Translations under genes and position numbers: made by a program
Assembly: GCF_003581425.1 (NCBI RefSeq)
Contig: NZ_QXTG01000002.1
Span: 744,001 to 808,000, forward strand
Length of the DNA: 64,000 nt
Direction of reading: 5' to 3'
DNA from: Amnibacterium setariae
Lineage (GTDB): Bacteria; Actinomycetota; Actinomycetes; Actinomycetales; Microbacteriaceae
Notes under the pieces: generated by a model
Databases searched by the model: none
What the model was told of the DNA's origin: nothing
Seen by the model: the letters and a program-made list of their open reading frames with translations, nothing else
Part shown: piece by piece, positions 38,657-43,024 of the stretch
Layout of the letters: every line of letters starts with the position of its first letter
Position numbering within the stretch: position 1 is the stretch's first letter

Positions 38657-39073
38657 CTAGGGAGCGACGCGGCGGAGGGCGGCCGCCGCGCGGATCGCGG
38701 CGAGCAGGTCGTCGGGCGGCGCGTCCTTGTAGAGCAGCGCGTCGGCGCCCGCCTCCCGGCCGGGACCCGCGTGCCGGTCGAGGTCCGTCGCCGTCACGAG
38801 CACGACGCGCGTCACGGGCGCGCCCTGGGTCAGCCGGATCCGCGCGTCGGAGCCGATCGTCTCCGTGACCTGCACGCCGCCGAGGCGCGGCATCCGCACG
38901 TCGACGACCGCGACGTCGACGGGAACGCGGCGCAGCACCGCGAGCGCCTGCACGCCGTCGGGCGCCTCCGCGACGACCTGCAGGTCGGGCTGCGCGTCGA
39001 CGACGAGGCGCCAGCCCTCCCGCTGCAGCGGGTCGGCGTCCGCGAGCAGCACGCGGATGGGCTCAGCGCTCAC
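38657..39073 (-). CDS. Receiver-only response regulator
   Basis: 138 residues, a receiver domain and nothing else. Acidic pair in VLLADADPLQ, phosphoacceptor Asp in VAVVDVRMPRLGG (near 56), Thr in VVLVTATDLD, and Lys in DALLYKDAPP. Regulators paired with this kinase type normally carry a LuxR-type DNA-binding domain, which is absent; the stop is followed by a terminator. It may act by protein contact or as a phosphate sink. GTG at 39073 overlaps the kinase stop (GTGA), so the pair is translated together. Confidence 0.85.
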   Translation of the reverse strand: MSAEPIRVLLADADPLQREGWRLVVDAQPDLQVVAEAPDGVQALAVLRRVPVDVAVVDVRMPRLGGVQVTETIGSDARIRLTQGAPVTRVVLVTATDLDRHAGPGREAGADALLYKDAPPDDLLAAIRAAAALRRVAP

Positions 39074-39963
39074 CGGTGCGACAGGTCGACGCCGTGCACC
39101 CCGTTGTGGAACCGGATGGAGGGGAAGGTCGCGCTGATCGAGAACCCGACGCCGGGCGTCTCCGAGGCCGTCAGCGTGCCGCCGAACAGCTCCGTGCGGG
39201 CCCGCATCTCCTGGATGCCCGGGCCGGTCAGCTCCTGGGTCAGCGACCGGAGGTCCTCCTCGACCCCGTAGGACAGCTCCGCGGCGGCCTCGTCCGCCGA
39301 CAGCCCGCGGCGAAGCACCGCGTTGCGGAACCCGTCGTCGTCGACCTTCACCGCGAGCCCGGACGCGGTCCACGTGAAGGCCACGCGCACCTCCGTGCCG
39401 TCCCCGCCGTACTTCAGCGAGTTCGACAGCGCCTCCTGCAGGATCCGGTAGACGGCGAGCTCGGCACCGGCGTTCAGGTCGTAGGGCTCGCCGTGCTCCT
39501 CGACGAGCACGCTGAGGCCCGCGTTCCGCATCGTCGTGAACAGCTCCCGCGTCGACCTCAGCCGCGGCTGCGGCCCGGCCTCCGCCTCGCTCTCGCGCAC
39601 GAGCGTCATGACGCGGCGCATGTCGGCGAGCGTCTCCCGGCCGGTCTCGGCGATCGTCTGCGCCGCGCGGACGGCCGCGGTCGGGTCGGTCGCGCCGGCG
39701 TACCGGGCGCCGTCGGCCTGCGCGACCATCGCGGAGACGCGGTGGACGGCGACGTCGTGCAGCTCGCGGATGATCCGGAGGCGCCCGCTCTGGTCGGCGA
39801 CGGAGACCTGGAGCCGCGCGGTGTAGCGGTCGTCCTCGGCCGCCTCGCGCCGCTCGGCGCGGAGCCGCCGCGCGGTGACGAGCAGCAGCACGAGCAGCAC
39901 GATCGCGACGACGAGCAGGCCGCCGCTGACGGCGAGCCAGACGGGCTGCGGGAGGCTCGGCAT
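39070..39963 (-). CDS. Sensor histidine kinase, HisKA_3/NarL type
   Basis: 297 residues. One N-terminal membrane helix (about 8-30) and no extracytoplasmic domain, so the signal is probably sensed in or near the membrane. Dimerisation helix with phosphoacceptor His in IIRELHDVAVHRVSAMV (near 70). ATPase domain with N-box ILQEALSNSLKYGGDG, the DDDG of a G1-like box, and GPGIQEMRARTELFGGTL. ATG at 39963 lies 8 nt after TAGACT (39972-39977). It is divergent from helR, with 167 nt between, so the promoters face away from each other. Confidence 0.9.
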   Translation of the reverse strand: MPSLPQPVWLAVSGGLLVVAIVLLVLLLVTARRLRAERREAAEDDRYTARLQVSVADQSGRLRIIRELHDVAVHRVSAMVAQADGARYAGATDPTAAVRAAQTIAETGRETLADMRRVMTLVRESEAEAGPQPRLRSTRELFTTMRNAGLSVLVEEHGEPYDLNAGAELAVYRILQEALSNSLKYGGDGTEVRVAFTWTASGLAVKVDDDGFRNAVLRRGLSADEAAAELSYGVEEDLRSLTQELTGPGIQEMRARTELFGGTLTASETPGVGFSISATFPSIRFHNGVHGVDLSHR

Positions 39964-40051
39964 GGGAGCCGAGTCTATGGACGGTGCCGCCGGATGCCGC
40001 GGAGGCGCGGGCGCCGCGCTCCCCTCCTTCCACAACTATCGCCGCACCCCC

Positions 40052-40066
40052 GTCTTGCGGCAAGAC
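40052..40066 (+). promoter_or_regulatory. Rifamycin-associated element (RAE)-like palindrome upstream of helR
   Basis: GTCTTGCGGCAAGAC is an inverted repeat with 6-bp arms and a 3-nt centre, flanked by C-runs (CCCC on the left, CCCCC on the right). The core CTTGCGGCAAG matches the RAE described upstream of rifamycin-inactivating and helR genes in actinobacteria. It lies 64 nt before the helR ATG. Element identity rests on my memory of the consensus core. Confidence 0.75.
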
Positions 40067-40130
40067 CCCCCTCCCGCGGCAGCATGCCGAGCCCGTCGCG
40101 CGCGGTGCGCGACGGGCGGAGGGGACGGCG

Positions 40131-42260
40131 ATGACGGAGCGGTTCTTCGAGCTCGCGGAACGGGCGGCGCACAAGGGCGCGCCGCGGCTGATCGGCGGGG
40201 ACGAGCGGGCGTTCGCCCGCATCGCGGCGACGCTCGCGGCGGAGGTCGACCGCACCCGGCGGGCGCTGGACGAGGCCCGCCGCGTCCGGGCGTCGTGGGG
40301 GCAGGCGGCGGTGCAGCGGGACGCGGAGGTGCGCCGGTTGGAGGCTCACCTCCGCGTGCTGCGGCGGGTGCGCGCCGACCTCGCGCTCGGCCGGATGGAC
40401 GTCGCAGGAATCGGCAGCAGGACGTGGATCGGCCGCATCGGGCTCGCGGACGAGGACGGCGAGCGGGTGCTCGTCGACTGGCGCACGCCCGCCGCGACCG
40501 CCTTCTTCGCGGCGACGCCGGCGACGCCGCTCGGGCTCGCCCGGCGCCGCCGCTACCGGTGGGCCCACGGGCGCGTGATCGACTACTGGGACGAGGCCCT
40601 CGATCCGGGCGTCGACGCCGACGACCTCGTGCTGGAGGCGGACTCCGCGTTCCTCCGCAGCCTCGGCGAGCACCGCTCGGGCCGGATGCGCGACGTGCTG
40701 GCCACGATCCAGGCCGACCAGGACGCGATCGTCCGCGCCGACGCGCACGGCGCGCTCGTCGTCGACGGCGGACCGGGCACCGGCAAGACCGTCGTCGCGC
40801 TGCACCGCGCGGCGTACCTGCTCGCGGCCGAGGAGCGGATCCGGGAGGGCGGGCTGCTGTTCGTCGGGCCGCACGAGCCGTACCTCGCGTACGTGGCCGA
40901 CGTGCTGCCGGGGCTCGGCGAGGAGGGCGTCGTCACCTGCACCCTCCGCGACCTCGTGCCGGAGGGCGCCGGGGCTCAGCCGGAGACCGACCGGGCGGTC
41001 GCCGCTCTGAAGGCGTCGCCGCGCATGCTCGACGCGGTCCGCCGCGCCGTCGCCGCATGGGAGCGCCCGCCCGAGGAGCCCCTCGAGGTCGGCACGCCCT
41101 GGGGCGGGGCGGTGGCGGACGCCGCGGCCTGGGCGGAGGCGTTCGCCGCCGCCGACCCGGCGTCGACCCACGACGACGCGCGGGACGAGGTCTGGGCGGC
41201 GCTCCTCGAGGTGCTCGCCGAGCAGATCGACGAGGAGGAGGCGCGGCCGGAGGCGGTGCGCCGGGCGCTCGCCCGCGACGAGGCGCTCCGGAGCGCGTTC
41301 GGCCGCGCCTGGCCCGTGCTCGACCCCGCGGGGCTCGTCGCGGACCTCTGGTCGCACCCCGCGCTGCTGCGGCGGTGCGCGCCGTGGCTGGCCGAGGACG
41401 ACGTCCTCCGGCTGCAGCGAACGGATCCGCGGGCGTGGACCGAGTCGGACCTGGCGATCCTCGACGCGATGCGGGCGCTGACGGGCGAGCCGGAGGCGGT
41501 CCGCCAGCGGCGCCGGCGCGAGGCCGCGGTCGCCGCGGAGCGGGCGGGTCGGAACCGCGTCGTCGACGAGCTGATCGCCGGCGACGACGGCGAGGGGCTC
41601 GTCGCCCTACTGCGCGGCGCCGACGCCCAGCGCTCGCTCCTCGACGAGGCGGCCCTGCCCGCGCCGACCCCGGACGCGCTGCGGGGCCCCTTCGCGCACG
41701 TCGTCGTCGACGAGGCGCAGGAGCTCACGCCGATGCAGTGGGCGGCGGTGCTGCGTCGCTGCCCGAGCGGCAGCCTCACGGTCGTCGGCGATCGCGCGCA
41801 GGCCCGCGCCGGCTTCGCCGAGTCGTGGGAGGAGCGGCTGCGGACCGTCGGGGTCCGCTCCGTGCGGCGACGGACGCTCGGCGTGAACTATCGGACGCCG
41901 GAGGAGGTGATGGCCGAGGCCGAGCCGGTGATCCGCGCGGCGCTGCCCGACGCGGCCGTGCCGGTGGCGGTCCGCACCTCCGGGGTGCCGGTGCACCACG
42001 GCTCCCCCGACGAGCTCGCGGCCGTGCTGACGGCGTGGCTCGAGCGGGAGCAGGAGGGGGTCGCGTGCGTGATCGGCGCACCGAGCCCGGTGGCCGATCC
42101 GCGGGTGCGGGCGCTCGACCCCGTCGCCGCGAAGGGGCTCGAGTTCGACCTCGTCGTCCTCGTGGACCCGGCAGGGTTCGGCGGCGGCGTGCGCGGCGCG
42201 GTCGATCGGTACGTCGCGATGACCCGGGCGACGGAGCGCCTCGTCGTGCTCGGCAGGTGA
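40131..42260 (+). CDS. helR: RNA polymerase recycling motor ATPase HelR (UvrD/HelD-like)
   Basis: 709 residues. An N-terminal coiled coil (about 1-90) precedes WIGRIGLADEDGERVLVDWR, a family signature of HelD/HelR. Helicase motifs follow: Walker A GGPGTGKTVVALHRAAYLL (near 212), DEAQELTPMQW (near 525), VVGDRAQARAG, a split 1A/1B insertion, and a final VAMTRATERLVVLG. HelR-type proteins enter the RNA polymerase channel, release stalled enzyme and, in Streptomyces, displace rifamycin. ATG at 40131 follows GGAGGGG. The RAE-like palindrome upstream fits rifamycin-induced expression. Function in drug tolerance is inferred from the family. Confidence 0.9.
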   Translation: MTERFFELAERAAHKGAPRLIGGDERAFARIAATLAAEVDRTRRALDEARRVRASWGQAAVQRDAEVRRLEAHLRVLRRVRADLALGRMDVAGIGSRTWIGRIGLADEDGERVLVDWRTPAATAFFAATPATPLGLARRRRYRWAHGRVIDYWDEALDPGVDADDLVLEADSAFLRSLGEHRSGRMRDVLATIQADQDAIVRADAHGALVVDGGPGTGKTVVALHRAAYLLAAEERIREGGLLFVGPHEPYLAYVADVLPGLGEEGVVTCTLRDLVPEGAGAQPETDRAVAALKASPRMLDAVRRAVAAWERPPEEPLEVGTPWGGAVADAAAWAEAFAAADPASTHDDARDEVWAALLEVLAEQIDEEEARPEAVRRALARDEALRSAFGRAWPVLDPAGLVADLWSHPALLRRCAPWLAEDDVLRLQRTDPRAWTESDLAILDAMRALTGEPEAVRQRRRREAAVAAERAGRNRVVDELIAGDDGEGLVALLRGADAQRSLLDEAALPAPTPDALRGPFAHVVVDEAQELTPMQWAAVLRRCPSGSLTVVGDRAQARAGFAESWEERLRTVGVRSVRRRTLGVNYRTPEEVMAEAEPVIRAALPDAAVPVAVRTSGVPVHHGSPDELAAVLTAWLEREQEGVACVIGAPSPVADPRVRALDPVAAKGLEFDLVVLVDPAGFGGGVRGAVDRYVAMTRATERLVVLGR

Positions 42261-42358
42261 GGCCGAAGGGCGCGCCGGGGCGCCCGCCGCCTGGTCGCGA
42301 CCTGCACCCCGCGGGCGCCCGCCTCCCCGTGGCGGTCCGCGTGCTGCACGATGAGCGG

Positions 42359-43024
42359 GTGACCGCGCACCGCCCGCCGCTCCTCGTCGTCGAGGACGAC
42401 CCGCGGATCGGCCCGATGGTCGTCGCCATGCTCGCCGGCGACTACGACCCCCTGCTGACCGCGAGCGCCGCGACCGCGCTCCGTCTGGCGGAGGAGCGGG
42501 ACTTCGCCGCCGTCGTGCTCGACCGCCGCCTGCCCGACGGCGACGGCCTCGACGTCGTGCGGCGGCTCCGGGCGCGGGGAGACGGGGTGCCGATCATCCT
42601 GCTCACCGCGCTCGGGTCCATCGAGGACCGGGTCGGCGGGCTCGACGCGGGCGCGGACGACTACCTCGTGAAGCCGTTCGCCTCCGCCGAGCTCCTCGCG
42701 CGGCTGCGCGCGATCACGCGCGAGCACTCGGACCGCGACAGCGCCCTGATGATCGGCGACTGGGAGTTCCGGCCGGCGACGCGCATCATCAACTCCCCCT
42801 ACGCCGGCCGGATCGTGCTGAGCCGCTCGGAGGCGGAGCTGCTGCACCTCCTCGCCCGCCACCCCGACCAGACGCTCTCGCGCGAGCGGATCCTGCGCGA
42901 GGTGTTCTCCCCCGAGGACACGCCGGGGACGGTGGACACCTACGTCCACCACCTCCGGCGCAAGACGGACCGCGACATCGTCACGACCGTGCGCGGGCTC
43001 GGCTACCGCGTGGGCGCGCCCTGA
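42359..43024 (+). CDS. OmpR/PhoB-type response regulator (orphan)
   Basis: 221 residues. Receiver domain (about 5-120): acidic pair in LLVVEDDPRIG, phosphoacceptor Asp in AAVVLDRRLPDGDG (near 53), LLTAL and YLVKPF. Winged helix (about 130-220): LSRSEAELLHLLARHPDQTL, VDTYVHHLRRKTD, and VRGLGYRV. No kinase gene is adjacent, so its partner is elsewhere. GTG at 42359 lies 6 nt after CACGAT (42347-42352). Tandem 11-bp direct repeats lie 76 nt downstream of its stop, ahead of the esterase/MprF operon, which it may control. Confidence 0.92.
   Translation: MTAHRPPLLVVEDDPRIGPMVVAMLAGDYDPLLTASAATALRLAEERDFAAVVLDRRLPDGDGLDVVRRLRARGDGVPIILLTALGSIEDRVGGLDAGADDYLVKPFASAELLARLRAITREHSDRDSALMIGDWEFRPATRIINSPYAGRIVLSRSEAELLHLLARHPDQTLSRERILREVFSPEDTPGTVDTYVHHLRRKTDRDIVTTVRGLGYRVGAP

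Follow-up and report, generated by a model that had tools for sequence, protein, structure and literature searches.

Comparison of sites aligned on their shared core suggests that the rifamycin-associated element (RAE) is the centre of a mirror-symmetric unit, lying in the middle of two back-to-back promoters. This two-sided anatomy is new here; the sequence comparison shows it together with its spacing and conservation, and ties it to five rifamycin-resistance gene families. We give roughly even odds (about 0.5) to the reading that, taken as a whole, rifamycin control at these sites works by RNA polymerase switching between the two opposed promoters. The window, by which we mean the entire 64,000-nucleotide stretch of Amnibacterium setariae DNA that was analysed, holds an RAE before a helR gene (Table 1). 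RAEs are reportedly found before helR, arr, rox, rgt and rph in Actinobacteria; the element is the subject of work by Spanogiannopoulos (2014), Surette (2022) and Hurst-Hess (2022) that is cited in PMC10719064, PMC12802891 and PMC8655204. HelR with an RAE is a known kind of pair, and the suggestion that the window would contribute another lineage carrying it has lost its novelty, since such lineages are already in print according to the available portion of PMC8655204.

The available portions of PMC10719064 and PMC12802891 describe the RAE as a 19-bp palindrome that overlaps the -35 region of a gene-proximal promoter, present the sensing factor as hypothetical, and leave open what senses rifamycins at the element. 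The units described here share with that RAE the palindromic core, the kinds of downstream gene and the gene-proximal promoter whose -35 overlaps the element, whereas the published account, as far as those portions go, has two sense promoters and a hypothetical factor and no mirror-image leftward promoter. We found no description of a leftward promoter at the RAE in the literature that we could cover, a coverage incomplete enough that this is no proof of absence; the main text of PMC13246000, in its available part, yielded neither RAE nor HelR. The presence of a second promoter in the mirror position makes the open question of rifamycin sensing at the RAE directly testable.

The original prediction would have fallen if the palindrome were not conserved upstream of orthologous helR genes. 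The outcome favoured the prediction: a core with at most one mismatch preceded 95 of 105 homology-selected helR-family genes and none of 25 other HelD genes, and the best matches upstream of the latter carried two mismatches and occurred at two of the genes. In a first sample of 98 other genomes, helR relatives with 54-63% identity were present in 13, namely 6 of the 53 genomes that represent other genera of the family and 7 of 39 from elsewhere in the order. None of the six congeneric genomes had one, and no other helR-clade gene was seen in them. Upstream of these 13 relatives the core was exact in ten cases, carried one mismatch in two and was missing in one. A HelD paralogue that is ~40% identical, of which the window's genome has a copy at C1:1467960, showed no core with one mismatch or fewer at any of 16 loci. 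The larger set was drawn by protein homology alone from 396 genomes of the order, 106 of which exceeded the HelR cut-off; the 105 upstream regions read include one match below the cut-off (G398), one incomplete stretch (L236) and several genomes already among the first 13. They comprised 91 exact cores, four with one mismatch, two with two (one of which lies inside the gene), three with three, and five upstream regions with none. At seven helR genes (L173, L174, L176, L179, L207, L208 and L213, with L179 being the same gene as L012), the RAE core is replaced by a central TCATGAG sequence, perhaps another operator at the RAE position judging from its placement, and a block resembling the leftward promoter is retained.

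We aligned the sites on the core, taking its first base as position 0, and examined both flanks of the 95 helR sites. The gene-side promoter has the consensus TTGCSG-19-CAGAAT, with CAGAAT at positions 26-31, and the A at 27 (-11) and the T at 31 (-7) were present together in 92 of the 95. On the opposite strand, a leftward TANNNT occupied positions -16 to -21 in 89 sites, compared with three or fewer at each of 35 other offsets between -45 and -10. Both hexamers start 21 nt from the dyad centre and 19 bp from the TTGCSG inside the core, and 86 of the 95 homology-selected sites possessed the two together. Within the leftward -10, T at -12, A at -11 and T at -7 reached frequencies of 0.94, 0.99 and 1.00, respectively; its geometry predicts a leftward +1 at core position -28, where G has a frequency of 0.80 and is followed by a second G at 0.77.

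Several other accounts of this anatomy were considered and rejected. A sense promoter on the left-hand TATA was discarded, as no sense-direction TANNNT was conserved upstream (no offset above 6 of the 95 helR sites). An RNA hairpin formed by the RAE was discarded as well, as the arms from -1 to -5 paired no more often than shuffled partners did (Watson-Crick pairs at 35 sites vs. 33.1 at -1, and at 69 vs. 69.6 at -5). Pairing did exceed that of shuffles at -7/+7 (39 vs. 25.6, sd 4.1) and slightly at -6/+6 (53 vs. 46.2, sd 3.8), so a longer imperfect palindrome may exist in some lineages. We infer that the unit is not a MerR-type promoter, given that its dyad coincides with the -35 instead of occupying the spacer, and no Rfam family matched at the four loci tested.

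The 17-mer GGNCTTGCSGCAAGNCC, sought in one genome per species, gave at least 80 loci with 81 sites, whose orientation was taken from the downstream ORF, independently of their flanks. Among the matches listed, 56 distinct sites preceded ORFs of five clusters, namely HelR, FAD monooxygenases, Arr, Rgt-type glycosyltransferases and Rph. Of the 23 monooxygenases in these matches, 13 were tested: seven exceeded the rifampin-monooxygenase cut-off, three exceeded that of PRK06834, one was truncated and two had no match at E 1e-130. In the same matches, all five Arr proteins exceeded the PF12120 cut-off and all three Rph proteins exceeded theirs, while the four Rgt-type proteins all matched NF000354 at scores below its cut-off. 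The RAE-linked FAD monooxygenases at L046:1132-2664 and L051:3379-4917, which lack an NCBIfam match at E 1e-130, possibly represent a different rifamycin-modifying branch.

Together with the window and 12 relatives, these 56 scan sites make up 69 distinct sites, held as 70 entries because L089 was entered in both orientations; its mis-oriented copy was kept in the hairpin and T-tail statistics given below and dropped from the following count. Before HelR, Rox-type, Arr, Rgt-type and Rph genes, 65 of the 69 distinct sites (matches listed plus relatives) had both -10 hexamers. The exceptions were L040, whose right hexamer is off by one base, L015, which deviates on the left, L107 from Bradyrhizobium, with the hexamers TATATC and TAGAAC that both end in C, and the window itself. 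Another 25 scan hits among the matches listed were unassigned. Six of them, all in actinomycete records, had both -10s; the locus ends before the gene in five of these, and the downstream ORF of the sixth (L054) belongs to no cluster. Both -10s were lacking in the other 19 hits, none of which came from a record labelled as class Actinomycetes.

We also searched the class for exact occurrences of the two-sided pattern A(3N)TA(12N)GG-N-CTTGCSGCAAG-N-CC(13N)A(3N)T, which was present in 171 of 394 genomes; the reversed pattern, used as a control, gave none among the matches listed. The 30 loci among the matches listed, which are not a random draw, comprised 23 HelR, three monooxygenase/Rox, two Rgt and two Rph loci and no unassigned ones, so that all 30 precede rifamycin-resistance-type families and the pattern serves as a sharp finder of them. 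Viral contigs did not contain the exact pattern. Outside Actinomycetota, a full unit stands before a monooxygenase in two MAG records labelled Gemmatimonadaceae (L066:6145 and L068), and a near-unit does so in Bradyrhizobium macuxiense (L107:3595). In Pseudonocardia xinjiangensis (L089:2665) the RAE lies between an Rgt-type gene on its right and an oppositely oriented helR ~219 nt to its left, an arrangement in which each promoter might drive a gene, and Rhodococcus oryzae (L057, sites 2186 and 5960) carries one RAE unit before helR and, 3.8 kb away, another before a monooxygenase gene.

Table 1. Features of the helR locus, in window coordinates
Feature	Position	Strand	Basis
15-bp inverted repeat GTCTTGCGGCAAGAC	40052-40066	.	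sequence
RAE core CTTGCGGCAAG, dyad	40054..40064	+	sequence; conserved before orthologues
Overlapping -35 hexamers within core	TTGCGG rightward 40055-40060; TTGCCG leftward 40063-40058		sequence
Predicted rightward -10 of helR, CAGCAT (consensus CAGAAT)	40080..40085	+	core position +26..+31
Leftward -10 remnant, TAGTTG instead of TANNNT (T at -7 missing)	40033..40038	-	hexamer read
RAE left outer arm, C-rich; relatives GGGG	40046..40051	.	comparison of sites
11-bp G+C-rich inverted repeat, predicted helR leader	40091..40117	+	sequence
helR, 709-aa class II HelD-type RNA polymerase recycling ATPase	40131..42260	+	profile match, phmmer

The original prediction placed a 15-bp inverted repeat 64 nt before a gene with HelD/HelR signatures, and both parts were borne out: 64 nt separate the repeat from the ATG at 40131, and the encoded protein is HelR by a curated model, scoring 1020.4 bits against NCBIfam NF041254 (motor_HelR, cut-off 750) with residues 6-707 aligned to positions 1-705 of the 706-position model. 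The window protein resembles Mycobacterium smegmatis HelD (class II; 6yxu and others), aligning over residues 32-708 with chain H of 6yxu in a phmmer comparison (E 9.6e-92), but it fits the HelR model far better than the HelD_MYCSM model, from which it obtained 365 bits against a cut-off of 1051. We conclude that the window gene is a genuine HelR. A program-listed ORF with a GTG start spans 39984..42260 (758 aa); the 709-aa frame is likelier to be the gene because GGAGGGG precedes its ATG and the HelR profile match starts at its residue 6. The Walker-type nucleotide motif GPGTGKT and the DEAQ motif VVVDEAQ are present both in the translation and in the alignment with 6yxu. The stretch ahead of VVVDEAQ, the putative place of the primary-channel (PCh) loop near the rifamycin pocket, could be aligned to M. 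smegmatis HelD with short gaps. By homology, the protein would bind RNA polymerase, push rifamycin and stalled nucleic acid off it and be released by ATP.

The claim that the window's palindrome has the same core as the RAE was confirmed, with one qualification. The core CTTGCSGCAAG does lie before a rifamycin-resistance gene, but the copy pairs over 15 bp only, compared with the published 19-bp palindrome, because its left outer arm is C-rich where relatives carry GGG. The core alone is within chance: allowing one mismatch, the window contains two matches, which are the two strands of a single site (0.51 expected, with 10 of 100 shuffles reaching two), and the 3.48-Mb genome contains one exact match vs. 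two for the reversed control. Its location and conservation exceed chance, because the genome scan proposed with the original prediction put the sole exact copy directly before helR and because cores precede helR-family genes. On the right-hand side, the predicted -10 is 19 bp from TTGCGG and sets the predicted helR start at ~40092, at or near which the 11-bp leader repeat begins. Folded from 40092, the leader hairpin gave -22.3 kcal/mol with a z of only -1.35, and 19 of 200 shuffles equalled it, so it is not significant.

The window does not hold the full two-sided unit, as the left hexamer does not fit TANNNT and the right one passes, and the complete pattern had no match in the window's own genome. 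The core retains all 11 bases, and the right promoter is largely kept. Judged from these bases, the copy is an atypical, partly decayed RAE, and we read it as a half-decayed unit, possibly following horizontal acquisition; as a natural variant, it combines a broken left side with an intact core and a mostly retained right side. Since the outer left arm and the leftward -10 are missing and the genome gave no match, a rifamycin response is not to be assumed for this copy, and with the left half decayed we predict that the window helR is less tightly controlled or no longer rifamycin-responsive. Decay may even have left the palindrome a functionless remnant, with helR expressed from the right-hand promoter only. 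We consider this a real possibility, if one short of an even chance: the loss of the arm and of the leftward -10, in a genome that has no two-sided match, is what such a remnant would look like, yet every base of the core has been kept and the helR gene is full length.

Many of the predicted leftward starts open into a perfect terminator-like hairpin followed by a run of T, an example of which is L045 (GGCAGGGAGTtccgACTCCTTGCC-ttttctttt; fold -17.3 kcal/mol, z -4.4). Across the matches listed and the relatives, the mean hairpin score was 16.0 vs. 11.4 in control windows (p 8e-8), and the next 8 nt contained 2.9 T on average vs. 1.2 (p 9e-11; n 69 and 188 in both comparisons). A hairpin anchored at +1 was detected at 37 of the 95 homology-selected helR sites, compared with 6.4% of shuffles, and at 30 of the 56 pattern-selected entries among the matches listed, compared with 5.1% of shuffles. 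It was absent from 58 of the 95 helR sites and from all five Arr sites among the matches listed. In a wider scan of the helR set, the 5' end of the hairpin peaked weakly at the predicted start, with seven sites at -28. The predicted leftward hairpin is common in these sequences, not obligatory.

In the mechanism that we propose, the rightward promoter, TTGCSG-19-CAGAAT, would feed the resistance gene, and the leftward promoter, TTGCSG-19-TANNNT with its predicted GG start, would often run into the terminator-like hairpin. The -35 hexamers share bases within the dyad, so an RAE would accommodate one polymerase at a time. Both halves would be transcribed. When the drug is absent, the leftward promoter would hold polymerase and the gene would be kept low; the leftward promoter is the nearer of the two to the -10 consensus, having T at -12. 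Rifamycin stops RNA at 2-3 nt. In its presence, polymerase would turn to the rightward promoter instead; RNA polymerase, the drug's own target, would then itself be the sensor. We propose that such a toggle gives induction only if drug-free early leftward complexes outlast drug-bound ones.

With its leftward promoter near-invariant, the RAE may work by polymerase moving between two positions, in place of the hypothetical factor or alongside it. The lack of a linked regulator, the spread over five gene families and more than one phylum label, and the precedent of Bacillus subtilis suggest a pure polymerase switch. Among the 25 largest clusters listed, no linked gene recurred in three or more of 55 loci apart from the resistance gene and overlapping frames. 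Polymerase-based rifampicin sensing by two promoters is described for the helD/pps alarm of B. subtilis in the available portion of PMC12802891, where two opposed sigmaA-type promoters lie before a HelD gene, the opposing promoter is apparently the stronger, and no dedicated drug receptor is needed. The B. subtilis promoters are convergent, with starts 39 bp apart, whereas the RAE pair is divergent with -35s overlapping in the palindrome, and the same portion treats the RAE genes of actinobacteria as distinct from the B. subtilis system. The 95 helR sites do not show the convergent arrangement: the region upstream of their leftward start lacks a conserved sense promoter. In its most complete form, the RAE would be a transcription-factor-free sensor in which the leftward start makes a tiny self-terminating hairpin RNA and drug-poisoned polymerase throws the switch; we regard this as rather unlikely. 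If true, the RAE would match the B. subtilis alarm with divergent in place of convergent promoters, and pieces of it would extend beyond Actinomycetota, to the two Gemmatimonadaceae MAG records and the Bradyrhizobium near-unit.

Several observations count against a toggle of either form. Under simple mutual exclusion, a leftward polymerase arrested by rifamycin should block the gene more, and in B. subtilis, where the promoters converge, bringing them too close abolished induction (PMC12802891, available portion). The hairpin is missing from the majority of helR sites and from the Arr sites and has its weak peak at the predicted start, and seven of the 105 helR upstream regions keep much of the left block with another palindrome in place of the RAE. 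The M. smegmatis sense start P1 reported in the available portion of PMC10719064 is not predicted by the unit. Finally, the outer arms GGGG/CCCC, conserved without covariation from -1 to -5, extend further than a pair of overlapping -35 hexamers requires and fit a DNA-binding dimer.

This last point bears on the reading that the RAE is bound, over its two -35 regions, by a dimeric transcription factor that responds to rifamycin and controls both opposed promoters; the leftward promoter would then serve as another output or be a by-product that a terminator shuts off. We hold this to be plausible, at a probability somewhat under one half. A dimer would account for the ~20-bp palindrome whose arms are conserved outside the -35 (GGG at -4 to -2 in 87 of the 95 helR sites, and C at positions 13 and 14 at 0.98 and 1.00), for a dyad centre that is G (0.64) or C (0.36) on either strand, as expected of symmetric binding, and for the different palindrome at the same place in the seven TCATGAG upstream regions; a factor binding the RAE is also what the available portions of PMC10719064 and PMC12802891 propose. 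Yet the 55 loci have no linked regulator among the 25 largest clusters listed, and none of the genes identified behind RAEs in the matches listed is a regulator, so there is no autoregulated factor in this sample. A by-product promoter, moreover, should decay, and the leftward -10 is kept about as often as that of the gene (89 vs. 92 of 95). It is very improbable that the conserved left block instead belongs to the sense leader as a DNA or RNA feature, such as the upstream sense promoter P1, with no leftward promoter at all: a review has P1 of M. smegmatis starting ~20 bp ahead of the RAE, near the predicted leftward start (PMC10719064, available portion), but sense-direction TANNNT motifs keep no fixed offset (6 of 95 sites at most), conservation drops about where the predicted leftward start lies, and the -12, -11 and -7 bases and GG start of a leftward promoter are conserved as given above.

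The absence of a drug-modifying gene from the window, which had also been claimed, is true of the listed neighbours examined but does not extend to the genome, which has an Arr-type homologue (rifampin ADP-ribosyltransferase) on the minus strand at C1:1356834-1357123 (L286). It exceeds the PF12120 cut-off, with the match split over two reading frames, and no RAE core with two mismatches or fewer was present within the stretch read around it. Two further matches in the genome were not counted as resistance genes: a weak one for monooxygenase (326 bits of 800) and one for Rph that is spurious (22 bits of 999). The neighbours of helR are a divergent HisKA_3-type sensor kinase with a response regulator (38657-39963, minus strand) and an OmpR-type response regulator (42317-43021, plus strand). 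The kinase gene may have a leaderless promoter of its own, as TAGACT lies right before its ATG.
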